64,000 nucleotides of DNA from the NCBI RefSeq assembly GCF_029626105.1, contig NZ_JARUBH010000009.1, positions 496,001 through 560,000 on the forward strand, read 5' to 3'. Origin of the DNA: Solwaraspora sp. WMMD792. Lineage in GTDB: Bacteria > Actinomycetota > Actinomycetes > Mycobacteriales > Micromonosporaceae. This document shows positions 10,254 through 26,571 of the stretch, one piece after another (within the stretch, counting starts at the first letter, position 1; the number at the start of each line of letters is the position of its first letter). A program made the translations under genes and the position numbers. The notes below the pieces were generated by a model that saw only the letters and a program-made list of their open reading frames with translations, was not told the DNA's origin and searched no databases.

Positions 10254-10330
10254 ACCGAGCGTAATTGATCCGCTTCTATTGGTAAAGAAGATGTTCGACT
10301 GTCGGCTGAATCACCTGGTCACCGGCGCGG

Positions 10331-10365
10331 CCGGCACCCGAGGCGGGACTCTGCCTGGGTGCCGG
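10331..10365 (-). terminator. Hairpin after the TM2-like gene
   Basis: A 9-bp perfect inverted repeat, CCGGCACCC (10331-10339) and GGGTGCCGG (10357-10365), lies downstream of the minus-strand gene ending at 10403 and before the S9 peptidase gene. No U-tract is visible, as is common in high-GC actinomycetes. It would separate the RiPP operon from the upstream gene. Confidence 0.5.
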
Positions 10366-10402
10366 AGGGATCCGTCGGGACCGTCGCGTCACGGTCGACC
10401 AA

Positions 10403-11005
10403 TCACTGCCATCCGGCGCCACCCGGTGCCGGGCTGCCGGGCGCCGGGCCGCCGGGTGCCGTGGGGCGCGGCGTCTGCGCGGCGAGCATCCGCTGATTGT
10501 GCTGTTCCACGCCCTGCGTCGCCAGTAGCGGACCGACGATGGTGTAGGTGAGCCAGGTCAGGAAACCGGTCACCCAGCCGATCAGGATGAACGTGAGCAG
10601 GATGTTGATGCCCTGGAAAACCCAGTAGGAGATCATCATGATCAGGCCGAGTGCGGTGCGGCCCGCGTACATGTTGCCGACTCCGAAGATACCGAGCAGG
10701 CCGAGCACGATTTCCAGCACGACGGCGGTGCCGCTCGATTTCATGGTCAACATCGCCGCGTAGTTCGGCTGCTGCGGCCCAGCGACGACGTAGATCTGAG
10801 CCGGCGGCGGGCCGCTCGGCGGACGAGTCATCTCGAGAGGGCGGGGCTGATAAGGGTCCGGCACCGGTGCGGGGAGATCCGGGCGAGGTGGCGGGGGGTC
10901 GCTGCCGTCGTTTCCGGTGGCGGGCATCGGTCCGTACGGGTCGGCTCGGTCGGGTCGCTCGACGAGGTATCGGTCCTGATCGGGGCGATAAGGGTCCTGA
11001 GTCAC
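10403..11005 (-). CDS. Pro-rich N-terminal TM2-like membrane protein
   Basis: Protein of 200 residues of unknown function. The first 75 residues are disordered-looking and rich in Pro, Asp and Arg (DPYRPDQDRY, PPPPRPDLPAP). Hydrophobic segments follow at roughly 88-105 and 112-155, with the TM2-like signature GIFGVGNMYAGRTALGLIMM, then a Pro/Gly-rich C-terminal tail. Actinobacterial proteins with this layout are often annotated as TM2-domain membrane proteins; their role is not known. The start GTG 11005 has only a weak GAAG ribosome site. It shares strand with the downstream RiPP operon but is separated from it by 149 bases and a hairpin, so co-transcription is not assumed. Confidence 0.6.
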   Translation of the reverse strand: MTQDPYRPDQDRYLVERPDRADPYGPMPATGNDGSDPPPPRPDLPAPVPDPYQPRPLEMTRPPSGPPPAQIYVVAGPQQPNYAAMLTMKSSGTAVVLEIVLGLLGIFGVGNMYAGRTALGLIMMISYWVFQGINILLTFILIGWVTGFLTWLTYTIVGPLLATQGVEQHNQRMLAAQTPRPTAPGGPAPGSPAPGGAGWQ

Positions 11006-11404
11006 CTTCGCAGTATCTCGACGAATCGTGTTCCACCGGAAGTGGCCGTTCAGCGGAATGAAGGGTAATAGTACGTACGGAAAGAGCTCGGTCGGCGGTG
11101 TGCGGCGTCCATTCGGCCCAGGTTTCGCAGGTCACGGCAAATCGGCAAAGATCTCTGTGTGAAGCGCCGGCCATAATGATCATGCGGCGGTATGGGTATG
11201 GACCGTCCTGAGGACACCCGCTACGTACTTGTGCGCACCCCTGGGCGCCGGCCGGACGATTGTGCCCTGGTAGTACCGCGTGCCAGTCTTGGCAATCGCG
11301 ATCGGACACATCCGGATCGCGCCTGTCCCGGCCCGGACCGGGGTGGTATTCCGGCCGACGTCGGATGAACTCGGGCAGAAGCGTGCTGATCAGGAGAACG
11401 GAAC
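11006..11404. other. Divergent intergenic region upstream of the kinase/CHAT module
   Basis: These 399 bases separate the minus-strand TM2-like gene from the plus-strand module and must hold both promoters. A 58-codon open frame (ATG 11192 to TGA 11368) has no ribosome site and unremarkable composition, so I do not call it a gene. AT-richer stretches at about 11055-11090 and 11140-11185 are candidate promoter areas. The ribosome site of the next gene, AGGAGAACGG, is at 11391-11400. Confidence 0.4.
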
Positions 11405-12733
11405 GTGCCGTGCGGGTTTGAGTTGGGGCTCGTCGTCCCGAAGGTGGGGCTGGTCGCCGCCTCGGTGGCGGGCCCTGTCGCGGTGGCCGGGCTGGCCGTC
11501 GGAATGACCTGGGCGGTGGGGCGGGCCGCCGACTCGCTGATCGAACGGCAACAACGCGCATTGGCGGCGAGTTTCCACGTCGAACGGGCAGCGGACCGGT
11601 ACGAGGCGGTGCGGCACCGGGCGGAGCGCGCCCGTACCGAGTTCGGGGCCGAGATCGATCTGCCGTCGGAGCTGCCCCGCCGATCCGCCGGTGCCGACCT
11701 GGCCCGGGCCGCCGCGCTGGCGGACGACCTGCTGGCCCGGACCGCAGCGGCGGAGCAGACCCTGCACGCGCAGTTGGGCGCGGCCCGCGCCCGCCGGATC
11801 GTCGCCCGGGTGCGGCAGGCGATCGCCGACGGTACGGTCACTTCCCGCACCGAACCAGGCCCTGACCCGGCACTCGGGTCACCCGGGCCCGGCCGACAGC
11901 GGCTGGCCGAGCTGGCCGAGCTCGGTGCATCCCTGCGCCGGGTGCTGTCCCGACTCGACGCCGCCGCGCCCGACGCCGTGGTAGGGCAGCTGGAGCAGTG
12001 GGCCGAGCAGGCGCTGCGGGCACCGTCCCCGGCCACCGCCCGGCGGTTGCTGGACGACCTGCGGTACTCGGTGGAGAAGGCGAACCAGGAGGTGGCGGCC
12101 CGTCGCGCCCGGCTGGCCACGCTCGCCGCCCCGCTGCGGGAACGGGCCGGCCCGGCCGTCACCGCGATGCACGCCCGGCTCGCCGCCGCGGCCGACGACC
12201 CTCGACCCGACTGGCCGGGCCTGACCGCGGCGATCGACGCCGCCCTGGCGGACGCCCGCGACGCCGCCGACCGCGTGCAGGTGGCGACCACCCGGACCTA
12301 CACCGCGTGGGCGGTACGGGAGTCGCTGCAGCAGCTCGGCTACACGGCGGAGCAGGGCTTCGACGCCCGGCTCGCCGGGGACGGGACGGCCCACCTCACC
12401 CGACCCGACTGGCAGGACCTCGCCGTCCGGATCGTCCAGCGCCCCGGCGACCAGCACACCCCCCAGCGACAAGATCTCCACCTTGACCTGGTCGCGCCTC
12501 GCGACGGCGAGCCGGACTTCGGCGTGGCGGTACGGGACCAGTGGCAGGGCTCGGTCACCGCGCTGACGCCCGCGTTGCGGGAGCGCGGTTTCGACGTGCG
12601 GGTCGACGATCGCGGCGCTGACGGTGGCCCGCACGTACACCCGGTCGACGCGCAGGCCTACCCCTTCGACCGCGCCGACCGTTCGCGCCGCGACCGGCGG
12701 CGCGAGCCCCGACTCCGGCAGCGGCGGTCATGA
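11405..12733 (+). CDS. Membrane-anchored coiled-coil protein, first gene of the kinase/CHAT module
   Basis: Uncharacterised protein of 442 residues. A hydrophobic segment near residues 13-38 (VGLVAASVAGPVAVAGLAVG) suggests a single membrane anchor with no cleavage site. About residues 40-290 are highly charged Ala/Arg/Glu-rich helices with heptad character, probably coiled coil. Residues 298-400 form a separate small domain with YTAEQGFDARL, HLTRPDWQDLAVRIV and DLVAPRDGEPDFGVAV. The tail is strongly basic. GTG 11405 follows AGGAGAACGG. It overlaps the AAA+ gene by 4 bases (ATGA), so the pair is probably made together. I do not recognise an enzyme motif; an anchoring or sensing partner of the AAA+ protein is a reasonable inference. 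Confidence 0.6.
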   Translation: MPCGFELGLVVPKVGLVAASVAGPVAVAGLAVGMTWAVGRAADSLIERQQRALAASFHVERAADRYEAVRHRAERARTEFGAEIDLPSELPRRSAGADLARAAALADDLLARTAAAEQTLHAQLGAARARRIVARVRQAIADGTVTSRTEPGPDPALGSPGPGRQRLAELAELGASLRRVLSRLDAAAPDAVVGQLEQWAEQALRAPSPATARRLLDDLRYSVEKANQEVAARRARLATLAAPLRERAGPAVTAMHARLAAAADDPRPDWPGLTAAIDAALADARDAADRVQVATTRTYTAWAVRESLQQLGYTAEQGFDARLAGDGTAHLTRPDWQDLAVRIVQRPGDQHTPQRQDLHLDLVAPRDGEPDFGVAVRDQWQGSVTALTPALRERGFDVRVDDRGADGGPHVHPVDAQAYPFDRADRSRRDRRREPRLRQRRS

Positions 12734-14610
12734 CCGGCTGGGACGACCGGACGTACCCGGTCTGGTTGCGGGAGGTGAGCACCGCACTGTCGATCAACTC
12801 GCAGGTGGTGCTCTACGGCAACGTGCGGGACCAGTTCCTGCTGCCGGGACGGTCCGGACCGGAGCTGTGCGACCTGCGCCGGGCGGTGCATCGGATGCTG
12901 CGTGCCGAGGGCTACCCGACGCTTGCGGTGGCCGACGCGATCCGTGGCGTGGGCGTAGTGGCCGAACCGGACGTTGCCGCCACCACCGACGGCCGGGACG
13001 GTACGGCGAACCCGGTGGCCGGCCCGGCTCCTCGCCCGCCGGCAATCAAGATCGGCCCGTGGCGTGGTGCCGGACCGGACCTCGACCGCGTCGCGGACCT
13101 GCTCACTCAGACGGCCGAGGCGCAACAGCGGCAAGCGGTCCTGGTTGACTACGCCTCCCATCTGGTGCTGGACGCAAACCGGCTGGAGCCGGGTGAGCAC
13201 CACTTCTTCGCCCGGTGTCTACGGCTGGCCCGCTCGGTCTACCCCAGGCCGGCCCCGCCGGACCCACGACCGCTCTACAACCCGGTGATCTGGGTCGTCG
13301 AGAACGAACGCGACCTGCCGCTGTGGCTGACCGCCGGCAACGAGGACATCCGCAAGATCGCCGTACCGCTGCCCGACCTGGGTGTCCGCCAGGCCGCGGC
13401 GACCCTGCTGGCCGGCGTCCTGCCCGGATACCCCGAGGCCGGGCCGGACGACCGTCGGGAGGTGGAGAAGCGGCTGGCCGAGCTGACCCAGGACATGCCA
13501 CTGCGCAGCATGATGGCCATCGCCCGACTGGCCATGCGGATGGGCACCAGGCTGGACGACATCGACGAGGCGGTCCGCTGCTACCGGGTCGGCGTGTACG
13601 ACAACCCGTGGCGGCAGGCGCATCTGCGGGACCGGTTGCGCGACGCCACCGGCAGCATCGGCGCCCGGGTGCGCGGCCAGCGGGAAGCCATCCAGCACTC
13701 GGTGGACATCGTGATCCGGGCGGTGCTGGGGCTCTCCGGAGCGCACGCCGGCAACTCGTCGCGTCCGCGTGGAGTGCTGTTCTTCGCCGGGCCGACCGGG
13801 GTGGGCAAGACCCAGCTGGCGAAGGAGCTCACCCAGCAGATCTTCGGCGACGAGCGGGCGTACACCCGGTTCGACATGAGCGAGTTCTCCGCCGAGCAGG
13901 CAGCGGACCGGCTGATCGGTGCCCCGCCGGGGTACGTCGGCTTCGACGCGGGCGGCGAGCTGACCAACGCGGTCCGGGAACGGCCGTTCAGCCTGCTGCT
14001 GTTCGACGAGGTGGAGAAGGCCCACCCCAGGATCCTGGACAAGTTCCTGCAGATTCTCGACGACGGCCGGCTCACCGACGCCAGCGGCTCCACCGTGTAC
14101 TTCTCCGACACCGTGCTGGTCTTCACCTCGAACCTGGGCGTCTCGGAGCAGGAGTACGCGCTGCACGCCGCCGCCGAAGCCGGCGGCCGGGCGTTTCCCC
14201 GCCAGGAGCTGGAACAGCGGGTCCGCGCCGCGGTGAACCGGCACTTCGTCAGCGAACTCAACCGGCCGGAGCTGCTCAACCGGCTGGGCGACAACATCGT
14301 CGTGTTCAACTTCATCACCCGTGCCGCCGCCGAGGAAATCTTCTCCGTTCTGCTCGACCACATCGCCCAGCGGCTGCGCAAGGAGCATCAGCTTCACCTC
14401 GAGCTCGCCGAACCGGTACGGCGCCAACTTCTCGACGGAGCCACCGCCAACCTCACCTTCGGTGGTCGGGGCATCGGGTCGTACCTGGAAAGCGCGCTGG
14501 TGAACCCGTTGGCCCGGGAGCTGTTCAACCGCGACCACCCGCGCGGAGAGCGGGTGGTGGTCACCTCGCTGCAGCGCCGCGACGACACCTACCAGATCGG
14601 ACTGGCCTGA
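12730..14610 (+). CDS. AAA+ ATPase: degenerate N-terminal half plus ClpB-D2-like C-terminal module
   Basis: Protein of 626 residues. The C-terminal half is a complete class-2 AAA+ module close to the second ring of ClpB/ClpA: Walker A GPTGVGKT (354-361), pore loop GAPPGYVGF (398-405), Walker B LLLFDEVEKAH (422-432), NRPELLNRLGDNIVVF in the arginine-finger region, and a C-terminal GGRGI sensor-2 segment. The N-terminal 300 residues look like a decayed ATPase-like domain: VVLYGNVRDQF sits where a P-loop would be, AVLVDYASHLV resembles Walker B, and VIWVVENERDLP resembles sensor 1. The ClpP-binding loop of protease partners is not apparent. It likely remodels or assembles a partner of the module. 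ATG 12730 overlaps the preceding stop (ATGA); the FHA gene follows 47 bases later. Confidence 0.8.
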   Translation: MTGWDDRTYPVWLREVSTALSINSQVVLYGNVRDQFLLPGRSGPELCDLRRAVHRMLRAEGYPTLAVADAIRGVGVVAEPDVAATTDGRDGTANPVAGPAPRPPAIKIGPWRGAGPDLDRVADLLTQTAEAQQRQAVLVDYASHLVLDANRLEPGEHHFFARCLRLARSVYPRPAPPDPRPLYNPVIWVVENERDLPLWLTAGNEDIRKIAVPLPDLGVRQAAATLLAGVLPGYPEAGPDDRREVEKRLAELTQDMPLRSMMAIARLAMRMGTRLDDIDEAVRCYRVGVYDNPWRQAHLRDRLRDATGSIGARVRGQREAIQHSVDIVIRAVLGLSGAHAGNSSRPRGVLFFAGPTGVGKTQLAKELTQQIFGDERAYTRFDMSEFSAEQAADRLIGAPPGYVGFDAGGELTNAVRERPFSLLLFDEVEKAHPRILDKFLQILDDGRLTDASGSTVYFSDTVLVFTSNLGVSEQEYALHAAAEAGGRAFPRQELEQRVRAAVNRHFVSELNRPELLNRLGDNIVVFNFITRAAAEEIFSVLLDHIAQRLRKEHQLHLELAEPVRRQLLDGATANLTFGGRGIGSYLESALVNPLARELFNRDHPRGERVVVTSLQRRDDTYQIGLA

Positions 14611-14657
14611 CCCTCTCCTCTGGAGTTGACGGCCGGAGTATCCACGAAAGGAGTCTG

Positions 14658-15161
14658 ATGACACCGAAGCTCATCTGCCCGGGGTGCTCCCGCGTCGTCA
14701 CCGACGGGCCGCCGTACTGTCCCACCTGCCTGCTGACGCTGGAGCCACTGCCGCCCGACGACCCGGCGCGGGAGCCGGCGGAGCCGGCCGACCCGGTGGC
14801 TGCCGCGCCGGCTGTCGGCGACGCGCCGACGCCCAGCCCTGCCACGGCGGTCGACCGGGCGGCGGCGGTGCTCTTCTTCCCCTGGGGAACGGTCGAGTTG
14901 GCGGCCGGACGTACCCTCGCCGTCGGCAGGGAGAGCTCGCCGTTCGCCGCGGAGCTCACGAGTTACGACAACGTCTCCCGCCGGCACGCGGAGATCAGCG
15001 CCACCGGCACCGGCCTGACCGTGACCGATCTGCAGTCGGTGAACGGCACCTTCGTCAACGACCAGCGGATCACCCCCGGCGAACCGGTCCCGGTGCGGCC
15101 CGGGGACCGGGTCCGGTTCGCCGCCAGGCTCGTGGTGCGGGTAGAGCGGTCCGAACGGTGA
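14658..15161 (+). CDS. Zinc-ribbon FHA-domain protein
   Basis: Small adaptor of 167 residues. Residues 7-28 carry a CPGC...CPTC zinc ribbon, followed by a disordered Pro/Ala linker. The C-terminal 95 residues are an FHA domain, which binds phosphothreonine: key strands read LAVGRES, NVSRRHAEI and NGTFVND, with the expected R, S/RRH and N positions. ATG 14658 follows AAAGGAG. It overlaps the PP2C gene (GTGA), so adaptor, phosphatase and kinase are made from consecutive cistrons. By family knowledge it should read phosphorylation by the kinase at 15907 and recruit partners such as the AAA+ or CHAT proteins; the actual phosphotarget is unknown. Confidence 0.85.
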   Translation: MTPKLICPGCSRVVTDGPPYCPTCLLTLEPLPPDDPAREPAEPADPVAAAPAVGDAPTPSPATAVDRAAAVLFFPWGTVELAAGRTLAVGRESSPFAAELTSYDNVSRRHAEISATGTGLTVTDLQSVNGTFVNDQRITPGEPVPVRPGDRVRFAARLVVRVERSER

Positions 15162-15904
15162 ACCGGGTCGAGGTGGTCGGGGTGACCCACCGGGGTCGGG
15201 TGCGTCCCGCCAACGAGGACACCATCGCCGTCGCCGGTTTCCTGTCGGCGGTTCCGGAGGGCGAGCCGGTGCGCCTGACCGTCTCGTCCACCCGCCCGGT
15301 GACCTGCCTGGTCGCGGACGGGCTGGGTGGGCACGCGGATGGCGCCCGGGCGTCCCGCCTGGCCGCCCAGGTGATCGTCGACGCGAGCCCGACCTTCGCG
15401 GACTCCGCGGCGATCGTGGCCGCCGTGCACCGCGCCGACGCCAATCTGTACGCCGAGTCCGGGCACCCTCTGCCACGGGGCGCGATGGGCACCACCGTGG
15501 TTGTGCTCACCGTGTCCGGTGCGGACGCCACCTGCGTCAACGTCGGGGACAGCCGCTGCTACCTGCTGCGTGACGGTCTCCTCGTACAGCTATCCCGGGA
15601 CGACTCGCCGCCACCGTCCCGGCCGGGCCCGGCGGCGCCCACCGGCCGGGTGACCCAGACGCTCGGCGGTCGCCTGACCCCAGCCCCGATCCACCCGCAC
15701 GTACAGCGGCTTTCCACCATCGCCGGCGACCGGTTCCTGTTGTGCAGCGACGGGCTCACCGACTACCTGCCGGTGGACGACGTGGAGAACTGCCTGACCG
15801 GCGGTGGCCGACCGGACGACGTCGTCCGGGACCTGCTGCGCCGCACCCTCGACGCGGGCGGTGGCGACAACGTTTCCGCTCTGCTCGTCACGATTCTGGA
15901 GTAG
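15158..15904 (+). CDS. PP2C-type Ser/Thr protein phosphatase
   Basis: Cytoplasmic Mg/Mn-dependent phosphatase of 248 residues. All core PP2C motifs are present: RPANEDTIAV, VADGLGGHADG (metal-binding Asp-Gly), GTTVVVL, VNVGDSRCYLLRDG, LLCSDGLTDYL and GDNVSALLV. GTG 15158 is the start because it overlaps the FHA stop codon and begins the domain without extension; longer frames run through the neighbouring gene. It should reverse phosphorylation by the kinase encoded 2 bases further on. There is no membrane segment, so it acts at the inner face of the membrane or in the cytosol. Confidence 0.9.
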   Translation: MNRVEVVGVTHRGRVRPANEDTIAVAGFLSAVPEGEPVRLTVSSTRPVTCLVADGLGGHADGARASRLAAQVIVDASPTFADSAAIVAAVHRADANLYAESGHPLPRGAMGTTVVVLTVSGADATCVNVGDSRCYLLRDGLLVQLSRDDSPPPSRPGPAAPTGRVTQTLGGRLTPAPIHPHVQRLSTIAGDRFLLCSDGLTDYLPVDDVENCLTGGGRPDDVVRDLLRRTLDAGGGDNVSALLVTILE

Positions 15905-15906
15905 CC

Positions 15907-17949
15907 GTGGACGACATGCACAGTGAAGCGGGCAACGAGCGCGCCGCCGGGCCGCTGAGCCCGCCGACCAGCCGGGACGATCTTCCGGTGACGACGGTCG
16001 ACCAGCCCGCGACCAGCCGGGACGATCTTCCGGTGACGACAGTGGATCAGCCCGCGACCACCCCCGACGAGCCGACCGGACGGTACCGGCGGGTGAACCT
16101 GCCACCGGCCCTGCTCGACCGGTACTTTCCAGACCGGGACCTCGCCGCAGGCGGCGAGGCGGACCTGATGCTGGTCCGGGACCGGATCAGCGGCACACCG
16201 GCGGTCATCCGGATCTACCGTCGCGGTGACGCCGTCGACAGCGCCACCCTGGACATCCTGCGGCGGGCGGACCGTCAGCACCTGATCAGCCTGCTGGACT
16301 GGGGCCGGAGCGACGGCGTGCTCTGGGAGGTCCTGGAGTACGCGGCCGGCGGGTCGCTGGCGGACCTGCGTCGCGAGCGCCCCGGGCCGTGGACCGACGG
16401 GCAGGTCCGCGAGGTGCTCGACCAGCTCCTGCCGGCTCTGGAGTACGTCCACTCGTTGCAGCTGGTGCATCGGGATCTCAAGCCGGACAACGTCCTGGTC
16501 CGCTCGGTCGAACCGTTCGACCTGGTACTCGCCGACTTCGGTCTGACGACCATGGTGGCGGCGACCCACGAGATGCGCCAGACCACCTCCCGTACGTTGG
16601 CCTACGCCGCTCCCGAGGCGGCCGCCGGCGACACCTGGGCCGGGTTGGACTGGTGGGCGCTCGGGATTCTTCTGGTGGAACTGCTTACCGGGCGGCACCC
16701 GTTCCAGCGGCTGGACGGCAGCTGGATGGACGACCGGATGATCGCCCGGGAGATGGCCGTCCGGGAGATCGACCTGAGTCTGATCCGTGACGAGCGGTGG
16801 CTGCTGCTGTGCCGAGGGCTGTTGACCCGCGCCCCGGAGCAGCGCTGGGGTGCCGCGCAGGTGCGCCGGTGGTGCGCCGGCGGGGCACCCACCGTCGCCG
16901 GCCCGAGCGGCCCGGTCTTCGTCTTCGCCGACACCGCCTACAGCTCGCCGCAGGAGTTGGCCGACGCGTTCCGTCGCCGGTGGACCGACGCCCGGCGGCT
17001 CCTTGCCGGGCAGGCGTACCGGACCCCGCAGTTCCTGGCGTTACGGGACTGGGCCGCCACCTGCCAGCTGACCGCAGCGGTGCGCGCCCTGGACGAGCCG
17101 AGCCGGCCGGACCGGGCGGTCACCCGGCTGATCCACGCCCTGGACCCGGAAGGGGTGGCCGTCTACTGCCAGCGCCCGATGGACCGGGACAGCCTGGTCC
17201 AGCTGGCCCAGCAGGCGATCGAAGGCCCCGGCGCGGCCCGGGACATCATCGTCGGGCTGCACGAGGACGGCATCCTAACGGTGCTCGACGGGCGGCCCGG
17301 CTGTGCCGGCTACGCACTGATCGACTCCCGGTGGCGGCGGCTCGGCGAAGGTTTCACCTTCCGGGCGCGGGAGCTGGATCCGTCGTTGACGAAGTCGCAG
17401 CGCGCGATGTACCTGGCGATGCTGCTGCTGGCCGCCTTCCCCGGCCAGGACCAGATGTACGCCAGGCAGGCCGAGGCCGCAGCGGCCGACCCGGACGCCC
17501 GGGCGCAGGCGTGGTTCGCCGCGCTGGCCGACCAGGACATCCCGGCGGAGTCCCGCCCCGCCCACCACATCATGTTGCTGCACCTGGCACCGCTGGCTGC
17601 CGACCGGACGGCCCGGCAGCGGGCGGACCGCGAGATCCGGCAGGCTGAGGAGGCCCGGCAGCGGACGCTCAGCCGGCGACAGACGCTGGACGTCCGCAGT
17701 GGTCCGCTCGCGGTGGTCTGCGGTGCGCTCGCCTGCTGGCTGGCGCGCCCTGAACCGGTGCCGCTCGGCCCGGTGACCGCGCCATGGTGGCTGCTCGCTG
17801 GCGTCGCGATCGCGGCGACGTTCTACCTCGGCTACCGGGCCCGGCGTGGTGGGCGCAGGAAGACCTCCTTCGTGGCCTTCGGCTGCGGGGTGATCGCGGT
17901 GCTGCTGCTCTACAACGGCCTGGGCGGGCAGCTGCCGCTGCCCGGGTGA
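15907..17949 (+). CDS. Membrane-anchored Ser/Thr protein kinase, Arg at the usual beta-3 Lys position
   Basis: Kinase of 680 residues. A disordered N-terminus includes an exact 15-residue duplication (TSRDDLPVTTVDQPA twice). The kinase domain spans about 65-325: HRDLKPDN catalytic loop, ADFGLTT magnesium loop and an APE-like APEAA. The beta-3 strand reads AVIRIYR, with Arg where Lys normally contacts ATP, and the glycine-rich loop is weak (LAAGGEADL), so ATP binding may be atypical. A helical middle region (about 340-590) of unknown fold follows, then two or three hydrophobic segments near the C-terminus (LAVVCGALACWLA, WLLAGVAIAATFYLGY, FVAFGCGVIAVLLLY). GTG 15907 is 2 bases after the phosphatase stop; ATG 15916 is an alternative. 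Confidence 0.85.
   Translation: MDDMHSEAGNERAAGPLSPPTSRDDLPVTTVDQPATSRDDLPVTTVDQPATTPDEPTGRYRRVNLPPALLDRYFPDRDLAAGGEADLMLVRDRISGTPAVIRIYRRGDAVDSATLDILRRADRQHLISLLDWGRSDGVLWEVLEYAAGGSLADLRRERPGPWTDGQVREVLDQLLPALEYVHSLQLVHRDLKPDNVLVRSVEPFDLVLADFGLTTMVAATHEMRQTTSRTLAYAAPEAAAGDTWAGLDWWALGILLVELLTGRHPFQRLDGSWMDDRMIAREMAVREIDLSLIRDERWLLLCRGLLTRAPEQRWGAAQVRRWCAGGAPTVAGPSGPVFVFADTAYSSPQELADAFRRRWTDARRLLAGQAYRTPQFLALRDWAATCQLTAAVRALDEPSRPDRAVTRLIHALDPEGVAVYCQRPMDRDSLVQLAQQAIEGPGAARDIIVGLHEDGILTVLDGRPGCAGYALIDSRWRRLGEGFTFRARELDPSLTKSQRAMYLAMLLLAAFPGQDQMYARQAEAAAADPDARAQAWFAALADQDIPAESRPAHHIMLLHLAPLAADRTARQRADREIRQAEEARQRTLSRRQTLDVRSGPLAVVCGALACWLARPEPVPLGPVTAPWWLLAGVAIAATFYLGYRARRGGRRKTSFVAFGCGVIAVLLLYNGLGGQLPLPG
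15967..16056 (+). repeat. Tandem 45-bp duplication in the kinase gene
   Basis: Two adjacent 45-bp units, 15967-16011 and 16012-16056, differ at only a few bases and encode the same 15 residues, TSRDDLPVTTVDQPA. It looks like a recent in-frame duplication of a disordered Thr/Ser-rich segment that could carry phosphosites. Confidence 0.85.
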
Positions 17950-17983
17950 GCCGCCGGCGGCCCTGACGGCCGCTGGACCGTCC

Positions 17984-18028
17984 GGCCCGTCAGTAGCTGG
18001 TCCGTCAGTAGCCGGTCCGTCAGTAGTC
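17984..18028 (+). repeat. Three tandem 15-bp repeats between kinase and CHAT genes
   Basis: Three units of the form GG(C/T)CCGTCAGTAG(C/T)(T/C) fill 17984-17998, 17999-18013 and 18014-18028. They lie in the 111-base gap before the CHAT gene. They could be a protein-binding array or simple slippage; no palindrome is present within a unit. Confidence 0.8.
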
Positions 18029-18060
18029 GGTGGAACGGCGCGTTGACCGCGGGAGGGGTG

Positions 18061-20745
18061 ATGACCGCGATGGCAGAGCGACCGTACGGTGCCGGTGAAT
18101 TGGACGCCGCACTGGCCGAGCTGCAGCGGCTCCCGCCGGGCGACCCACGTTGGCCGACTGTCCGGTCCCTCGTCCGGCAACGCCAGCTGGCCGAACAGAT
18201 CCGGGCGGTTGCCGACCGGTATTCGGCGGCCAAGGGGCGGTATCCGGGGGATCTGCTCCGGGAGCTGGACGCGCTCGCCGCACCGGCAGCCGAGTTTCCT
18301 GGCGTTCTGATGCTCTATCACACGGTGCGGGCGGTACTGGCCACGGCCCGCACCGTGCAGGACGGCGACTCCTCAGCCGCGACCGGAGCGGCGGACGTGA
18401 ACGCGGCGTTGATCGCCGCCGACCGGTTCGCCCAGCAGCTGCGGGCGACGGCGGAACGGTACGGGCGGGGCCTGAACGAGGTCGACGCCCGCCTGGCACG
18501 CGATCTGCCGGGGATCGAACGGCAGCTGCGCGCGCAGCAGATCATGCTGGGCCTGGCGGCGAGCAGTGGGCCGGGCCGGGATGACGAGTTCCTACGATTG
18601 CTGGAACAACTGCACGACCTGCTCGACCAGCCGGGCGTCCGCGCCGAGCAGCGGGCCATGGCGTCGGACGCAAAGCTGGCCGCCGCCCTGCTGGCCGGCA
18701 TGACCGGTGACCAGTGGCAGTGGGACGCGGCCACCGGGCTCACCGACGAGCAGCTGGCACCGTTACGGGCCCGGGCCCGGACCTCGCACGAGCGCGATCC
18801 GCTGCAACCGGACCGTCTGCTCTACGGTCTCGCCCTGCTGATGACCAGCGCGACGGATCCTGGCCGGCTCGACGAGGCGGTCGGTGAGTTCCACGCCGCG
18901 GCGGCTGCCACGTCGGCTCGATCTCCGTTCCACGCGGCGATCTTCGCCGCTTTCGCCGGAGTCGGCCTGTTCCGACGGGCCGAGCTGGCCGGCAATCAGG
19001 AGGCCTGGGACGCGGCCCGCGAGACGCTGGACGCCGCCCGGCGGCTGGCCGGCGGACCGCAGCATCCGCTGTGGCCGGTCATCGGCGAGCTGCTCGGCGT
19101 GACCGAACGACATCGGGGGCAGTGGACGGACGCCCAGCAGACCGAGCTGGCCGGGTTGGACCGGTACGCCTGGCAGGTGCTCCTGCAGCCCGACGTCACC
19201 GCCGCGGCCGAACTCGCCCGGTACGCGGCGGGAAAAGCGATCGAGCTGGCCCATCGCAACGTTTCTCAGAACGCCGTCGCCGAGGCGGTCCGGGCCCTCG
19301 AATCGGGGCGTGGACTGATCCTGCACTCCGCCACCGAGCTGCGCTCGGCCAGCGACCGGTTGACCAGCGCGGGCCGTGCCGATCTGGCCCGACGCTGGCT
19401 GGCCGCCACCGACGCGGCAGGGCTGGACGGCGCGCCGGCGGAGCTACGTCGGGAGGTGCTGACGGCGCTCACCGACAGCCCGGGAGACCGGGCAAGCGAC
19501 GCGCTGCTGCACCCGCCCGGGCTGGCCGAGATCCGCTCGGCCCTGGCCGCCCTGGAGCTGGACGCACTGGTCTACCTGGTGCCGGCGCCTGCTCCCGCGT
19601 TCGGTGCGGCGGTCATCGTGCCCGTGGACGGGCCACCACTGGCGGTCCTGCTACCCAATCTGGTGACGCAGCGGCCGCCGGACGTCGAGCGCTACCTGCG
19701 CGCGGTGACCGACCGGGACGTCGTTCTCGCCGAGCCGCACCGGGAGTTTCAGGTGCAGGAGGCGGACGCCCGGCTCGGCGACAGCCTGGCCGGGCTCTGC
19801 GACTGGGCGTGGTACGCGGTGATCGGCCCGGTGCTGGCGAACTGCCCGCCGGGGCGGGCGGCGGCGTCCGTGTCGCCGGCCCGGACGCCGCGGCTGGCAC
19901 TGATCCCGGTCGGGGAGCTGACCCGCGTCCCGTGGCAGGCGGCCCGCCGCCCGGACGGGGTGTACGCCCTCGAACTGGCCGAGTTCTCCCAGGCGGTCTC
20001 CGCCCGGATGCTGTGCGAGGTCGCGGCGCGTCCACCGGTACCAGCGCGCCCGGTCGGCTTGATCGTCGGAGACCCGGACACCGCCGACCGGGCGGCCGAC
20101 CTGCCGTACGCGCGGGCCGAGGCGTACGCCGTCCAGCAGTCCTTCTACCGTGGCGGCCGGTACGTCGGTCGCCGCCCGGACGGCTCGGTGAGCCGGTCGG
20201 GCCAGGGCCGCAAGGCCGAGGTCCGCGACTGGCTGTTGTCCACCGCCCCGGCGGACGGCGTGATGCTGCACCTGGCCTGTCACGGCGTCATTCAGGTCGA
20301 GCCCGGGGCGGCCAGCTCCTATCTGCTGTTGGCCGACGGGGAACGGCTCAGCGCCGAGGAGATCATCGCGAGCCTGGCGCTACGTCCGGACCGGCAGATC
20401 GGGCTGGTCGTGCTGGCCGCCTGCCGTACCGGTGTCTCCGGCCGCGGCTACGACGAGGCGTACAGCCTCGGCACCACCTTCCTGGCCGTCGGTGCCCGTG
20501 CCGTGCTGTCCACCCAGTGGAGCATCCCGGACGGCGCTACCTCGGTGCTGATGTTCATGTTTCACCACTTCCTGATGGTCGAGCGACGGACGGTCCGGGA
20601 CGCACTTCGCCAGGCGCAGCTCTGGATGCTCGACCCGGACCGGCGGCCGCCCGCTGCCATGCCGGCCGTGTTGCGCCGGCAGCTGCGGGTGTCGGATCCG
20701 GCGGCGGTCGTCGCCTGGGCCGGCTTCACCCACTGGGGCCATTGA
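18061..20745 (+). CDS. CHAT-domain caspase-like protease with helical-repeat N-terminus
   Basis: Protein of 894 residues. About residues 1-530 are Ala/Leu/Arg-rich alpha-helical repeats of TPR-like character. The C-terminal 350 residues form a CHAT domain, a caspase/separase-fold cysteine protease: LALIPVGELTRVPWQAA, LPYARAEAYAVQ, catalytic His in LHLACHGV (near 741) and catalytic Cys in VVLAACRTG (near 788), then GARAVLSTQWSIPD. Both catalytic residues are intact. ATG 18061 is chosen because GGGAGGGG lies directly before it; the TTG at 18043 and ATG 18070 are alternatives. CHAT proteases act as effectors in bacterial conflict and cell-death systems; this one would be controlled by the linked kinase, phosphatase, FHA and AAA+ proteins. 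Its target is unknown. Confidence 0.85.
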   Translation: MTAMAERPYGAGELDAALAELQRLPPGDPRWPTVRSLVRQRQLAEQIRAVADRYSAAKGRYPGDLLRELDALAAPAAEFPGVLMLYHTVRAVLATARTVQDGDSSAATGAADVNAALIAADRFAQQLRATAERYGRGLNEVDARLARDLPGIERQLRAQQIMLGLAASSGPGRDDEFLRLLEQLHDLLDQPGVRAEQRAMASDAKLAAALLAGMTGDQWQWDAATGLTDEQLAPLRARARTSHERDPLQPDRLLYGLALLMTSATDPGRLDEAVGEFHAAAAATSARSPFHAAIFAAFAGVGLFRRAELAGNQEAWDAARETLDAARRLAGGPQHPLWPVIGELLGVTERHRGQWTDAQQTELAGLDRYAWQVLLQPDVTAAAELARYAAGKAIELAHRNVSQNAVAEAVRALESGRGLILHSATELRSASDRLTSAGRADLARRWLAATDAAGLDGAPAELRREVLTALTDSPGDRASDALLHPPGLAEIRSALAALELDALVYLVPAPAPAFGAAVIVPVDGPPLAVLLPNLVTQRPPDVERYLRAVTDRDVVLAEPHREFQVQEADARLGDSLAGLCDWAWYAVIGPVLANCPPGRAAASVSPARTPRLALIPVGELTRVPWQAARRPDGVYALELAEFSQAVSARMLCEVAARPPVPARPVGLIVGDPDTADRAADLPYARAEAYAVQQSFYRGGRYVGRRPDGSVSRSGQGRKAEVRDWLLSTAPADGVMLHLACHGVIQVEPGAASSYLLLADGERLSAEEIIASLALRPDRQIGLVVLAACRTGVSGRGYDEAYSLGTTFLAVGARAVLSTQWSIPDGATSVLMFMFHHFLMVERRTVRDALRQAQLWMLDPDRRPPAAMPAVLRRQLRVSDPAAVVAWAGFTHWGH

Positions 20746-20808
20746 GAGAGGCAACCGTCCCGTCGGCGCCGACCGGCGGGCGGGCACTGGCGGAGAGTGA
20801 GGACCACG

Positions 20809-23364
20809 GTGTCGACGTACGACGAGGTCATCGCCGGACTGCAGGCGAAGCTGGCAGCCCGGTCCGGGCCGGAGCGGAGAAACGTGTTGCGTGAGCTGGC
20901 CGCCGCCCACATCGGCCGGTACCGGCTCAGCCCGGGAAACCCGGCGGGGCTGCCCGATCTGACCGCCGCAATCGACGCTTGGCGGGAGATCTACACGGGT
21001 CTGGAGTCCGACGATCCGCAACGCCATCCGTACGCCGGGGTGCTCGGGCTGTACCTCACGGTCCGGGACCGGGCACACACCCGGTCCTCGGCCGATCGAA
21101 AACAGGCGATCGCGTTCCTGGAGGAGGCGCTCAGCTATCCGCAGCAGTCGCCGACCGCGTTGGCGATGTACCGGTTCAGCCTGGCGCAGTACTACCTGAT
21201 TGAGACGATGAACCAGTTCGACGCCGCGCAACGGGGCGGGTCGGCCTTCCGGACCGGGGCTTCTCCCGAGTCCAGGGCCGTGGCCCGGCGCACCGTCGAA
21301 CTGCTGCGTCTCGCCGACGAGGAGCTGAGCGGAGCGAACGAGCAACTCGCCTCCGCTGTGACGCCGTTGCTGACGACGGCGCAGGCGTGGTGGGACCTGC
21401 TGGAGTCCCTGGGGAACGGCTTCGGCGACATCGACTTCCCCCGGATGGCGCGGGCGATGGCCGCAGTGCAGCAGTTGAACAACGACGTCCTGTCGGGGGC
21501 GGGCGGATTGCCCGCCGGGCCGACTGGCGCGGGGCCGGCTCATACCGCCGGCGGCCATCTGGCCGACCCGTGGCCGTCGGTGGCGGACCTGCTGTCCCAG
21601 GTCTCGCCGCGGGACTTCCCGACCCTGGTGGTACGGGGCGAAGTCGACGACGAGCCGCTGACAGCACCACCCGCGCAGCCGATGCCCGTAGCGGCCGTCG
21701 ACCTCACCGCACTGCGGCGGGAGCTGCTGGCGACGCTGGCCGGCGCGGCAGCCGTCGCACCGGCGGAGGCGGAGCCGACGGCAGCCGGGCCGGTGCAGGA
21801 CGAGGCAGGGCTGTTGCAGGACGAGGCCGGAACGACGCAGGACGACGCCGTGGCGGAGCTGCTGGCGTCACTGTGGCCCGCGGACGGTCCGCTGCCGGCG
21901 ACGACCGTGATCGACCGGGCGGTGGCGTTGGCGACCACCCTGGTCGGCGAAGGAGAGCCCGAACCGGCGGCCGCCGCAGTCGACCGTCTGCTACTGGCCA
22001 CCACGCTGTTTCTGCGGGACCGCGACGACGACGGCGGCGGTTGGGGCGAGACCCGCCGCTCCGGCGACGTCCATGCTGGCACCGACCTGCGGGGGGCGGC
22101 CGGACATCTGTTGGCGGCCACGGCCGGTCTGCCGTGCGGACACCCGGTCGCCGCGCTTGTCCCGCAGGCGTTGGGCGTGCTGCTCGACCGGTGCGACTCG
22201 CTGCCCGGCGTGCTCGGTTCCGCTGACCCGATGCCCGTCGTCAACGCGGATCCGGCGACGGACCCGGCGGCGGTCGGTGCCGTCGCCGCAGCGACCCGCG
22301 ATCTCGGAGCCGACCTGCTGGTGCAGCTCTGCCTGCTGCCGGCTGGGGCCCGGCCCGGCGTACCCCGGGTGGGGCTGCTCCTGCTGCATCCGCAGCCGGC
22401 CCGGGTCGACCTGGTCGGTCCGGTGCCACTTCCCGGCCGACCTGACGGCCTGCCGGGCGGCGAGTTCGGTGCCTGCCTGCGGGCGGCCCTCGGCGAGCGG
22501 ACCACACCGGGACGGGTGCTGCTGGTCGTCCCCGACGAGCTGGTCCGGCACGCGTGGTCGGCGGTGCGCGACGAGACCGGCCGCCACCTCGTCGCGGACC
22601 TCACGATGTCGTACGTCGCATCCGGCCGACAGGTGATCGAGTTGGCCGGGCGGCGGCAGCTGCCAGCCACGCACACCCCGGTCTTTGTCGCCAACCCCCG
22701 GGGCGACCGGGAATGGGCGAGCGTCGAGGCGATGGAGCTGCGCCGGCTGTTCCACCCACGGTCCGTCGGGCTGGGCCGGGTCGTCGAGCAGTCGGACGGG
22801 GCGGGTACGCCGGCCCAGCTGCTCGCCTGGCTGCCCGGCCCGGACGGTCCCGGCACCGGGTTGCTGCAGCTCGACTGCGGTCTGGTCGACGTCCCGGCGG
22901 GCGACGGCGTCGGCAGCGCCCCCGCGTTGGAGCTGGGGACAGCCGACGAGCCGGCCGTGCTCACCGCCGAGAGCATCCGGCAGCAGGGGCGACGCCGGCC
23001 GGTGGGCTCGCCCGGCGGTGTGGCGGTCCTGCCGGCCGCCGCCAACCCCGGGGCCGCGATCCGGTTGGCGGACGCGTTGCTGGCCGCCGGGCTGACCGGG
23101 GTGATCGGCTGGTCGTGGCCGGTGCCGCAGCCGGTGGCGGCGCTGATGCTCGTCGTCCTGCACGGCAAGCTGATCGACGAGCGGCTGCCGGCGGCCGAGG
23201 CGGTCACCGCGGTACGGCGGTGGATGCTCGACCCCGACCGGCGTGGCCCGGTGGCCGGGGCGGCGGGCCACGCCGCGACCATGGCCGGAACCGATCTCAC
23301 CGATCCGGTCTTCTGGGCGGCCATGTGGCATCGCGGCTCGATCCGGGTGCCGGACGAGTCGTAG
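20809..23364 (+). CDS. Catalytically dead CHAT-like paralogue
   Basis: Protein of 851 residues that parallels the preceding CHAT protein: helical N-terminal half (QALSYPQQ-type repeats and a long Ala/Pro-rich linker with duplicated QDEAG elements near 340), then a CHAT-like C-terminal domain. Homology to the active paralogue is clearest in RRWMLDPDRR (active copy: QLWMLDPDRR), VIGWSWPVPQP (LSTQWSIPDG) and AVLPAAANPG (VVLAACRTG). The catalytic Cys position is Ala, and the His segment LACHG is replaced by LDCGL. It should therefore be non-proteolytic and may scaffold, inhibit or guide its active partner; this role is inference. GTG 20809, with GAGG 6 bases upstream, is preferred to GTG 20797. 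It ends the module. Confidence 0.75.
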   Translation: MSTYDEVIAGLQAKLAARSGPERRNVLRELAAAHIGRYRLSPGNPAGLPDLTAAIDAWREIYTGLESDDPQRHPYAGVLGLYLTVRDRAHTRSSADRKQAIAFLEEALSYPQQSPTALAMYRFSLAQYYLIETMNQFDAAQRGGSAFRTGASPESRAVARRTVELLRLADEELSGANEQLASAVTPLLTTAQAWWDLLESLGNGFGDIDFPRMARAMAAVQQLNNDVLSGAGGLPAGPTGAGPAHTAGGHLADPWPSVADLLSQVSPRDFPTLVVRGEVDDEPLTAPPAQPMPVAAVDLTALRRELLATLAGAAAVAPAEAEPTAAGPVQDEAGLLQDEAGTTQDDAVAELLASLWPADGPLPATTVIDRAVALATTLVGEGEPEPAAAAVDRLLLATTLFLRDRDDDGGGWGETRRSGDVHAGTDLRGAAGHLLAATAGLPCGHPVAALVPQALGVLLDRCDSLPGVLGSADPMPVVNADPATDPAAVGAVAAATRDLGADLLVQLCLLPAGARPGVPRVGLLLLHPQPARVDLVGPVPLPGRPDGLPGGEFGACLRAALGERTTPGRVLLVVPDELVRHAWSAVRDETGRHLVADLTMSYVASGRQVIELAGRRQLPATHTPVFVANPRGDREWASVEAMELRRLFHPRSVGLGRVVEQSDGAGTPAQLLAWLPGPDGPGTGLLQLDCGLVDVPAGDGVGSAPALELGTADEPAVLTAESIRQQGRRRPVGSPGGVAVLPAAANPGAAIRLADALLAAGLTGVIGWSWPVPQPVAALMLVVLHGKLIDERLPAAEAVTAVRRWMLDPDRRGPVAGAAGHAATMAGTDLTDPVFWAAMWHRGSIRVPDES

Positions 23365-23408
23365 CGGTAGCCCGTCAACAGCCCGTCAACGGGGGTCAGC
23401 CGGCGGGG

Positions 23409-24485
23409 TCAGCCCGGTGGCGCGGCGGTGCTGCCCCGGACGACGAGAGTAGTGCCGATCTCCACCCGGTGTTGCGGCAACACGCCACCGTTGGCCAGCG
23501 CGAGTACCATCCCGGCGGCGGTCGACGCCATCTCGGTCAGCGGCTGGCGCACGGTGGTCAGCGGTGGGCAGCACCAGCGGGCGTTGTCGATGTCGTCGAA
23601 GCCGACCACACTCAGGTCGTCCGGGATGCGCAGGCCGAGCCGCCAGGCTGCACTGTAGACGCCGAGGGCCTGTAGGTCGTTGCCGCAGATCACCGCCGTC
23701 GGCCGGTCGGGCCGGTCGAGCAGGTCACGCCCGTGTGTCTCACCGTCCTCGAAGAAGAACCGGCCGCTGCGGACCAGGTCGTCATCCAGCCGTACGCCAA
23801 CCGCCGCCATCGCCGCCCGGCAGCCCTCCAGCCGCGCGCGGGCGCCGAGCATGTTGAGCGGGCCGCTGATCACGGCGATCCGGCGGTGCCCGAGGTCGAG
23901 CAGATGGCGGGTCGCGGTGATGCCGCCGTTCCAGTTGGTGGCGCCGACCGACGGGGTCGGGTGGGCCGGTTCGCCGACCGGGTCCAGGGCGACCAGGGGG
24001 ATGGCGCTGGCGGCCAGCTGGGCGTGCTGCTCCGGAGTGAACGCGGAGTAGACGGCGATCACCCCGACCGGTCGGCGGGCCAGCAACTGCTCGGCCCAGG
24101 ACCGGCCCGGTTCGGTGCGGCCCTGCACCTCGGTGAACCCGACGGCGAGCTCGTTGGTCCGGGCGACCAGCTCCACCCCACGCAGGATCTCGATCGCCAG
24201 GTGGCTCTCGAGTTGATAGAAGACGACCTCGATGCCGGCGGTCGGGGAGGCCGAGCCGGGCCGCTGGTAGCCGTGCTCGCGGACCAGTGCCTCGATTCGG
24301 CGGCGGGTTTCCAGGGCCACTCCGGACCGTCCGTTGAGCACCTTCGAGACGGTGGGTTTCGAGACGCCGGCCAGCTCGGCGATCGTCGCGACGGAGAGAT
24401 CGCCACGGCGGCGTCCGCGTCGCTGACCTTCCGGCGGCCTGCCGGTCGCCGGTGGGTGGTCCGGGTGGGTGGGGGCGTGGTCCAC
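23409..24485 (-). CDS. LacI-family transcriptional regulator
   Basis: DNA-binding repressor of 358 residues with a basic N-terminal extension. The LacI helix-turn-helix is VATIAELAGVSKPTVSKVLN near residues 32-51, with the hinge VREHGYQRPG, and the periplasmic-binding-like sugar domain covers the remainder (FTEVQGRTEPG, VVGFDDIDNARWCCPPLTTVRQP). It probably responds to a sugar and controls the divergent CBM2 esterase gene: two matching 15-bp half-palindromic sites lie in the shared 220-base intergenic region. The GTG start at 24485 is the longest; a later in-frame GTG could also serve. Confidence 0.9.
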   Translation of the reverse strand: MDHAPTHPDHPPATGRPPEGQRRGRRRGDLSVATIAELAGVSKPTVSKVLNGRSGVALETRRRIEALVREHGYQRPGSASPTAGIEVVFYQLESHLAIEILRGVELVARTNELAVGFTEVQGRTEPGRSWAEQLLARRPVGVIAVYSAFTPEQHAQLAASAIPLVALDPVGEPAHPTPSVGATNWNGGITATRHLLDLGHRRIAVISGPLNMLGARARLEGCRAAMAAVGVRLDDDLVRSGRFFFEDGETHGRDLLDRPDRPTAVICGNDLQALGVYSAAWRLGLRIPDDLSVVGFDDIDNARWCCPPLTTVRQPLTEMASTAAGMVLALANGGVLPQHRVEIGTTLVVRGSTAAPPG

Positions 24486-26136: not shown

Positions 26137-26571
26137 TCAGCCACCCAGCCAGTGCAAGGGTGGCTGCTCCCCGGTGCGTAGATAGTGGCGGGCTGCTTCG
26201 CGGGCCTGTGCCGTGGCGATCCTGGTACGTATGGGCGGCAGCTCGGCCCAGTCGCCGTAGACGTCGAAGGCAACCGGGGCGTCCGCAGGTTCGACGTCAG
26301 GGTCGACGGCGTACCGGTTGCCGGTGCCGTGCGGTTGACTGCGGTCCAGCCAGTCGACGAAGGACCGGTCAGGATGCCCGACGCCGATCATGATCGCGCC
26401 ATGCCGGGTGGGACGGTGGATCTGCACCGCGTACGCGACGCCGTCCTCGGCGGCCTGCCGGTGCACCTGGTCGAGGACCATGTCGAGCTCTTCGACGGTC
26501 GACACCTCGACTTCGCGCCCGCGATCGGGCTCCTCCACGGACGGCCCGTCCCACGACACCACGTAGCTCAT
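26137..26571 (-). CDS. Imm1-family immunity protein
   Basis: Small cytoplasmic protein of 144 residues with the Imm1 pattern: N-terminal MSYVVSWDG strand, VEVSTVEELDMVLDQV helix, GAIMIGVGHPD, ELPPIRTRIATAQAREAARHYL and the closing GEQPPLHW. Imm1 proteins neutralise deaminase and other polymorphic toxins. ATG 26571 is chosen because GGAAGG is 8 bases upstream and the start overlaps the toxin stop (ATGA), fixing the toxin-then-immunity order. Longer in-frame readings extend into the toxin gene and lack a ribosome site. It should bind and block the deaminase encoded just upstream. Confidence 0.8.
   Translation of the reverse strand: MSYVVSWDGPSVEEPDRGREVEVSTVEELDMVLDQVHRQAAEDGVAYAVQIHRPTRHGAIMIGVGHPDRSFVDWLDRSQPHGTGNRYAVDPDVEPADAPVAFDVYGDWAELPPIRTRIATAQAREAARHYLRTGEQPPLHWLGG

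Follow-up and report, generated by a model that had tools for sequence, protein, structure and literature searches.

A kinase, FHA and AAA+ gene block with an active and a dead CHAT protein in Solwaraspora: a possible bacterial self-defence or self-destruct switch

We analysed a 64,000-nucleotide stretch of DNA from Solwaraspora sp. WMMD792 (contig NZ_JARUBH010000009.1, positions 496,001 to 560,000), hereafter the window, which comes from a 7.4 Mb genome (G000) with relatives among the actinomycetes. It carries a block of seven genes encoding a coiled-coil protein, an AAA+ protein, an FHA protein, a PP2C phosphatase, a membrane kinase and two CHAT proteins. It may act as a switch for self-defence or self-destruction of a kind not yet described in bacteria. 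With moderate confidence, we read it as an accessory AAA+ remodelling switch, gated by phosphorylation, of the conflict or programmed-death kind, with exchangeable effectors. The reading draws on features seen in the sequence, namely the gene set, its linkage in related loci, an empty site in the same genus, an array of T-x-x-D motifs in the kinase tail, a predicted active/dead CHAT pair and the plasmid contexts of relatives. The features are as follows (positions in the window; aa, amino acids).

11405-12733, + strand: coiled-coil protein (CC), 442 aa; a core component with a single hydrophobic segment at its N-terminal end.
12730-14610, + strand: AAA+ protein (AAA), 626 aa, with an N-terminal domain followed by one ClpB-D2-type ring domain (Pfam AAA_2 3.9e-46, plus ClpB_D2-small).
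14658-15161, + strand: FHA protein, 167 aa, with a zinc-ribbon-like CxxC/CxxC head and an FHA domain with Arg91 and Ser107 (Pfam FHA 3.7e-16).
15158-15904, + strand: PP2C phosphatase, 248 aa, with the motif Asp54/Asp198/Asp237 present (Pfam PP2C_2 5.3e-13).
15907-17949, + strand: Ser/Thr kinase, 680 aa, with a T-x-x-D tail, kinase domain, middle region and two C-terminal hydrophobic segments (Pfam Pkinase 7.8e-34).
15967-16068, + strand: candidate FHA-docking array in the kinase tail (TSRD, TTVD, TSRD, TTVD, TTPD).
18061-20745, + strand: CHAT1, 894 aa, a predicted active protease with an N-terminal region and a caspase-like CHAT domain with His741/Cys788 (Pfam CHAT 2.5e-49).
20809-23364, + strand: CHAT2, 851 aa, a CHAT1 paralogue with the catalytic pair replaced by Gly691/Ala744 (Pfam CHAT 9.6e-14).
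10328-23424, no strand: whole accessory block, comprising the seven genes and a TM2-like gene, absent from the same site in the same-genus genome G093.

An earlier note on this DNA had proposed the seven genes, running in one direction with overlaps. All seven are real genes on the + strand inside 11405-23364 with families backed by Pfam, in which CC had no family above the cut-off. The overlaps are limited to two of the six junctions (4 nt each), and the other gaps measure, in gene order, 47 nt (AAA-FHA), 2 nt (PP2C-kinase), 111 nt (kinase-CHAT1) and 63 nt (CHAT1-CHAT2). The phospho-signalling trio of kinase, PP2C and FHA proteins was borne out by the Pfam matches listed above. The description of AAA as a ClpB-like remodeller holds for its D2-type ring, but the protein has a single ring and a distinct N-terminal domain. 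A two-ring ClpB identity was rejected, as Pfam recognised the D2-type ring alone. The ring domain contains what we take, by analogy with ClpB, to be the Walker A lysine (Lys360), the Walker B glutamate (Glu427) and the pore-loop aromatic residue (Tyr402). The N-terminal domain has a GN(V/I)xD motif and no visible Walker A, and a sequence search with the first ~280 residues found no convincing relative among solved structures.

By hydropathy only, C-terminal transmembrane segments occur in 83 of 84 kinases of the family, whereas an N-terminal segment occurs in just 28 of 87 CC-family proteins. An N-terminal anchor as a core feature of the CC family was therefore rejected, and the membrane-tethered switch suggested earlier is plausible through the predicted kinase segments rather than through CC. 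CHAT1 and CHAT2 share 28% identity across 291 residues; the aligned catalytic positions agree with the earlier claim of an active caspase-like protease and a dead paralogue, as far as sequence can tell. No TPR family was found in CHAT1 by Pfam. In the 111-nt gap upstream of CHAT1 (~17988-18032) we saw by eye three imperfect tandem copies of ~15 nt.

Related loci were chosen by similarity to AAA. From one genome-contig scan, 80 of 186 relatives were kept and further genomes were added; once three duplicates (L032, L143, L144) had been dropped, 100 loci were mapped, of which 43 are from Actinomadura. Gene models came from our own codon-usage caller and their starts are approximate. Because the relatives share ancestry, the locus counts and the shuffles are less independent than they look. 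CC lay no more than 6 kb from AAA in 88 of the 100 loci, the kinase in 85, the FHA protein in 85 and PP2C in 21; CC, kinase and FHA were all within this distance in 73 loci. This recurrence of the same genes together implies a grouping beyond chance. Furthermore, a ~215-aa radical SAM protein (Pfam Fer4_12) was present in 96 of the 100 loci by six-frame search (84 by called genes), this being the only linkage tally corrected in that way. The conserved unit is thus kinase, CC, AAA, radical SAM protein and FHA protein, and the CHAT genes form an optional cassette. The earlier note had suggested checking whether the seven-gene neighbourhood is conserved. Linkage is kept in relatives, though not as a unit of seven, since PP2C (21 of 100) and CHAT (24 of 100) vary. 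In one subgroup the radical SAM gene is separate. Close to it are genes for a ~250-aa protein that resembles a lipoprotein, with a DGSGS motif in the copies read, and for a partner of ~400 aa, for example in L122:3469-5563, L125:3541-5549 and L104:178-2479; strong matches number 10 for the ~250-aa family and 15 for the ~400-aa family. These two proteins are a possible outside sensor.

The block is accessory within its genus. In G093 the left flank runs up to window position 10327 and is followed, after no more than a few bases, by the right flank from position 23425 on, which fits either an insertion or a deletion. G114 carries the complete block at the same site. The TM2-like gene (10403-10864, - strand; Pfam TM2 1.7e-4, below the cut-off) points away from the module and comes and goes with the block. 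The CC gene was found in two of seven genomes of the genus. The AAA N-terminal domain occurred in at least 25 of 200 genomes of the family (22 at E<1e-100), in at least 34 of 150 genomes in the family of G367, and in at least 8 of 393 genomes of the class; these genome tallies, like those of the CHAT2 family below, are lower bounds because only 5 to 14 candidates were scored per genome.

The seven genes were compared between the window and L031. The ratio of non-synonymous to synonymous substitution rates (dN/dS) was 0.10 for AAA, 0.15 for the kinase, 0.18 for PP2C, 0.29 for CHAT1, 0.34 for CC, 0.44 for CHAT2 and 0.46 for FHA, against 0.21-0.40 for three flank genes, and all seven frames were intact in both genomes. 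Given its intact frame and its dN/dS, CHAT2 is under constraint, slightly less so than the flank genes.

The kinase tail of the window contains five T-x-x-D motifs, where 1.3 are expected from shuffling of that tail (p=0.0027). Across 76 usable N-terminal kinase tails, which take in a few residues of the kinase domain, we counted 171 such motifs against 33.2 expected, with 49 as the highest of 300 shuffles. Two or more motifs were present in 51 of the 76 tails (6.4 expected), and with Glu allowed at least one motif was present in 65. Other T-to-D spacings, from 0 to 6 residues, occurred at 0.28-1.34 times expectation, so that the enrichment is confined to T-x-x-D. Among the 11 tails without a motif, nine come from gene models whose called start falls on or close to the edge of the domain; L037 and L122 are the two real misses. 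Copy number and sequence of the motifs vary while the acidic residue at +3 stays, with six to eight copies in four Actinoplanes/Paractinoplanes tails. The copy on a Clostridia plasmid (L169) instead shows, by eye, T-[VTI]-[IFL]-N in two kinase tails, with three copies per tail. The ligand of the Rad53 FHA1 domain, pT-E-A-D, is of the pT-x-x-D type (excerpt of PMC3146460). By this analogy, the T-x-x-D motif of the tails is a candidate FHA-type phosphothreonine docking motif. A narrow form of the pattern is enriched in the FHA proteins (16 against 4.3 expected), which is suggestive, and in 10 of 84 FHA proteins it lies N-terminal of the FHA domain by position. AAA was rejected as a second carrier, as the narrow pattern was at chance over the AAA proteins (28 against 27.6 expected). 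A TTRD at about residue 480 of the ring domain recurs in Actinomadura-type AAA proteins (L066, L095, L105 and others).

Of the 100 loci, 24 have a CHAT gene no further than 10 kb from the core, as do 22 of the 72 loci with full flanks; for comparison, whole genomes hold 1-12 CHAT matches each (8 genomes). Both catalytic residues are kept in 21 of these 24 loci, while L041 and L053 are without the pair and L125 has half of it (called genes; weak cases). All 24 are among the 49 loci that come from outside Actinomadura, Actinoallomurus, Thermomonospora and Spirillospora. On a 68-row AAA tree the presence of CHAT near the core changed at least 10 times. Eight other loci have a RES-domain gene near the core (found with our own hidden Markov model in all eight; checked with Pfam in three), which adjoins a CHAT gene or sits one gene away from it in six of the eight, the two others being L055 and L056. 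A ~220-aa partner goes with the RES-domain gene in seven loci.

Proteins with the N-terminal region of CHAT2 stand beside a catalytically complete CHAT in seven mapped loci (the window, L031, L039, L047, L049, L050 and L126). The CHAT2-family member is predicted to be dead in the window, L031 and L050, has lost the His in L049, is without the catalytic pair or the CHAT domain in L039 and L126, and is cut in L047. We fetched eight of 33 further places with this family, chosen partly for nearness to the core, of which one (L157) proved to be the L049 locus, seen whole. At the seven new places a CHAT neighbour was present in 7 of 7, six of them with a recognisable catalytic motif. Judged by their catalytic residues, the active and dead CHAT proteins are a recurring pair. 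The CHAT2 family was found in 13 of 25 core-bearing genomes against 16 of 175 other genomes (Fisher p=1.4e-6, assuming that both counts drew on one and the same set of 200 genomes). As the family also occurs without the core, the pair is not bound to it. At six of the seven new places the pair lies near genes sized like a STAND/LuxR ATPase and a Peptidase_C14 caspase, confirmed by Pfam in both places scanned (L155 and L156). There, a second system stands by the CHAT pair (L155:10625-16118, L156:9840-15269), consisting of the STAND/LuxR ATPase, the Peptidase_C14 caspase and proteins of ~74 aa and ~345 aa.

Beyond the Actinomycetota, the AAA N-terminal domain was found on 20 plasmid records, 12 of them conjugative, with six from Moellerella and seven from Rhizobium that are partly near-copies; among phage records there was no match. 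In regions of Polaromonas, Moellerella, Photobacterium, Leisingera and Acinetobacter, the annotation gives the order AAA-domain protein, PIN protein, hypothetical protein, AAA and 4Fe-4S protein. In the one region of these that was scanned, from Moellerella, the first gene encodes an MkoA-like helicase and the second a PIN_4 protein. PADLOC matches at plasmid relatives included MkoA (7e-102) in L165 and PDC-S37 (9.4e-139) in L163. The Rhizobium region has AAA, the radical SAM protein, a 2086-aa kinase/DUF4011/helicase/MTES_1575 protein and CC, and in the Caballeronia region the AAA, radical SAM, kinase and CC models match in the same order. A plasmid of Aristaeella (Clostridia) carries genes for a DUF4011 protein, kinase, CC, FHA, radical SAM protein, AAA, PP2C, a DUF6273 protein and another kinase, with matches to six component models, of which CC is the weakest (2e-10). 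In Geminocystis, AAA is present with no such neighbours directly alongside. A trio of a second small AAA, a radical SAM protein and a hypothetical protein adjoins the plasmid core at L170:12712-14694 (annotation only). That relatives of the core sit on plasmids, those of Pseudomonadota among them, beside antiviral-type genes is one reason why the block may be a system of defence or self-destruction.

Among working systems, the architecture most resembles the threonine-phosphorylation pathway of type VI secretion systems (T6SS; PpkA, PppA, Fha and ClpV), which likewise combines a transmembrane kinase, a PP2C phosphatase, an FHA protein and a ClpB/ClpV-type ring ATPase. In Pseudomonas aeruginosa, Fha1 is required for the recruitment of ClpV1, and PpkA for both foci (excerpt of PMC3953482). 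The block differs in the N-terminal domain of its AAA, in its extra CC and CHAT genes and in the candidate docking motif on its kinase tail. A scan of 17 window proteins, those of the seven genes and ten more, showed no T6SS sheath, tube or baseplate component, and a ClpV (TssH) identity for AAA was rejected, as TIGR03345 scored 208 bits against a cut-off of 885 and the ClpB model scored higher. On the best reading of this analogy, the block would work like the PpkA/PppA/Fha/ClpV pathway without itself being a T6SS.

Following these comparisons, we infer this sequence of events. A trigger signal would lead to phosphorylation of the N-terminal T-x-x-D repeats of the membrane-anchored kinase, by the kinase itself or, in the clade with Arg at the beta-3 position, perhaps by another kinase. 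The FHA/zinc-ribbon protein would then dock on the repeats and gather CC and the AAA ring at the membrane, where the ring would pull on a client; PP2C would reset the switch. Here the client is most likely the CHAT1-CHAT2 pair, in which dead CHAT2 would restrain CHAT1 until it is remodelled and unfolded. Freed CHAT1 would cleave cell targets and growth would stop. In relatives, the same core may be coupled to other effectors, such as CHAT with a RES-domain protein, or a helicase with a PIN or restriction-endonuclease-type nuclease.

The earlier note had matched the gene set to predicted NTPase- and CHAT-based conflict systems. A match to the MoxR-vWA ternary systems (Kaur et al. 2020) failed, because Pfam found no MoxR or vWA gene in the operon and AAA is of the ClpB-D2 type; membership was rejected. 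As far as an excerpt of PMC7159879 describes them, those systems are likewise actinomycete multi-gene NTPase modules with exchangeable effectors, whereas the block has a ClpB-type ring instead of MoxR, no vWA and a phospho-docking switch. MADS membership was rejected as well (MAD6 kinase model 74.7 bits against a cut-off of 460); the PADLOC match to mad6 (2.1e-40) is a kinase-domain match. The TPR-CHAT protein of Craspase (Csx29) resembles CHAT1 in its long N-terminal part and its CHAT domain with His/Cys; Craspase/Csx29 membership was rejected at 18 bits against a cut-off of 300, with no Cas gene among the seven and no TPR family in CHAT1. No gasdermin family was found by Pfam at E<=1 in the seven proteins, a search that bacterial gasdermins can escape. 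The antiviral-type helicases of Mokosh (MkoA), Hhe and PDC-S37 lie beside, or are linked to, the plasmid relatives. Mokosh/Hhe membership was rejected, as no COG1112-type helicase is among the seven genes, and Mokosh is not known to include an AAA/radical SAM core. No PADLOC model fits the gene set as a system, and no description of the set was found in the open-licence PubMed Central literature.

In the TerY-P triad (vWA, PP2C and a kinase-zinc ribbon protein; excerpt of PMC11090510), a kinase and a PP2C are likewise joined with a zinc ribbon in one operon. The block could be a stress module of this type, with a kinase/PP2C switch that senses metal or redox state through the zinc ribbon and the Fe-S radical SAM protein, and with AAA as a stress chaperone. 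The distant relatives L043-L047 have the same kind of AAA and radical SAM protein, with adjoining vWA and PP2C genes in L043 and weak kinase-model matches nearby in L044, L046 and L047, and zinc-ribbon-like cysteines are present in 64 of 88 FHA proteins of related loci. Yet the window operon has no vWA by Pfam, its zinc ribbon is on the FHA protein and none was found on the kinase, the kinase ends in transmembrane segments, and no tellurium-resistance family turned up in the 17 window genes scanned. We consider a stress module improbable.

Several observations weigh against the defence or self-destruct switch. By PADLOC at E<=0.01, there was no match for CC, FHA, PP2C, CHAT1 or CHAT2, and the matches for kinase and AAA are domain matches. 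The ten other window genes (of 46) scanned with Pfam encode metabolic enzymes, a regulator, a transposase and one Imm1 protein, and form no defence island. In three of three helicase-PIN plasmid regions searched, the coiled-coil-like ~370-aa hypothetical protein had no match to the CC model. Phosphorylation of Fha1 itself is dispensable for ClpV1 recruitment in the T6SS of P. aeruginosa (excerpt of PMC3953482). The remaining observations concern the state of the window copy and the Actinomadura loci, and each points to an alternative.

As regards the window copy, the radical SAM protein present in 96 of the 100 loci is missing from the window and from G114. In the six-frame search, every locus re-examined had it apart from the window, L031, L054 and L087, the last two being cut. 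A genome-wide search of the seven genomes of the genus gave no match at E<=1e-8, although the same query succeeded in the controls G024, G018, G145 and G003; G000 gave one weak partial match (E=6.2e-6). Moreover, the window kinase retains HRD and DFG but has Arg102 in place of the beta-3 Lys. The copy could thus be decaying or rewired, with its radical SAM gene lost, its kinase catalytically dead and CHAT2 a pseudogene in progress; the dN/dS values of CHAT2 and FHA, slightly above those of the flank genes, agree with this. Against decay stand the seven intact frames in two genomes and dN/dS values that are all below 1. Arg at the beta-3 position occurs in 7 of 74 kinases, namely those of the window, L031 and five Actinoplanes/Paractinoplanes loci, and the latter five keep the radical SAM protein and PP2C. 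Dead or CHAT-less partners also recur in other loci. Decay therefore seems quite improbable to us.

The main rival is a role in housekeeping signalling, to which effectors would have been recruited later. The module would then serve membrane signalling and protein remodelling (envelope, development or stress), would be housekeeping in some lineages, and its CHAT proteins would be adaptors or processing proteases instead of killers. In Actinomadura, Thermomonospora and Spirillospora, typA adjoins the core in 41 of 45 loci, and no CHAT gene lies within 10 kb of the core at any of the 43 Actinomadura loci, of which 29 have full flanks. All five of five genomes in the genus of G367 carry the module, and the low dN/dS values of AAA and the kinase are those of strongly constrained genes. 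On the other hand, the module is rare in the class, an empty site exists within the genus, the CHAT trait changed repeatedly, RES-domain genes occur near the core, and the plasmid relatives carry antiviral-type helicase and nuclease genes. The patchy spread that the earlier note proposed to look for is supported for the genus, the family and the class, but in Actinomadura the module is mostly fixed beside typA; the core-genome conservation with a housekeeping role that the note named as evidence to the contrary is found in part there. We regard a housekeeping role as rather unlikely.

The switch with exchangeable effectors, as favoured here, may be part of something wider. Tentatively, and with some doubt, the block could be a single branch of an immune or self-destruct platform that spans phyla and has no name yet. 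Its base would be a ClpB-D2-type ring, a coiled-coil partner and usually an NrdG-like radical SAM protein, with interchangeable inputs and effectors; in this branch, once a multisite pT-x-x-D signal has arrived, unfolding by AAA would take away a built-in dead CHAT inhibitor. The missing CC match in the helicase-PIN plasmids makes the wider platform slightly less likely. Inputs would be the docking array of kinase tail, FHA and PP2C, or a set of vWA, PP2C and kinase; effectors would be the active and pseudo CHAT pair, CHAT with the RES protein, helicase with PIN, or the kinase-helicase-restriction endonuclease protein. We place the block among the multi-gene NTPase conflict systems, a known kind, and there is a fair chance that the AAA/radical SAM core, shared across phyla, merits a name of its own. 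If true, a phospho-signalling layer (tail array, FHA and PP2C) and an unfolding motor would be added to the control of bacterial caspase-like proteases, and an active protease with its dead paralogue would be a portable cassette. A Fer4_12 radical SAM gene next to one for the AAA N-terminal domain offers a gene signature for finding such systems in Pseudomonadota, Bacillota and Actinomycetota.

Elsewhere in the window, two of the genes scanned stand apart from the block. At 26137-26571 (- strand) lies a stand-alone homologue of the Imm1 immunity protein (9.8e-12), whose toxin partner was not searched for, and at 39309-40139 (+ strand) an IS4/5-type transposase (DUF4096 and DDE_Tnp_1).

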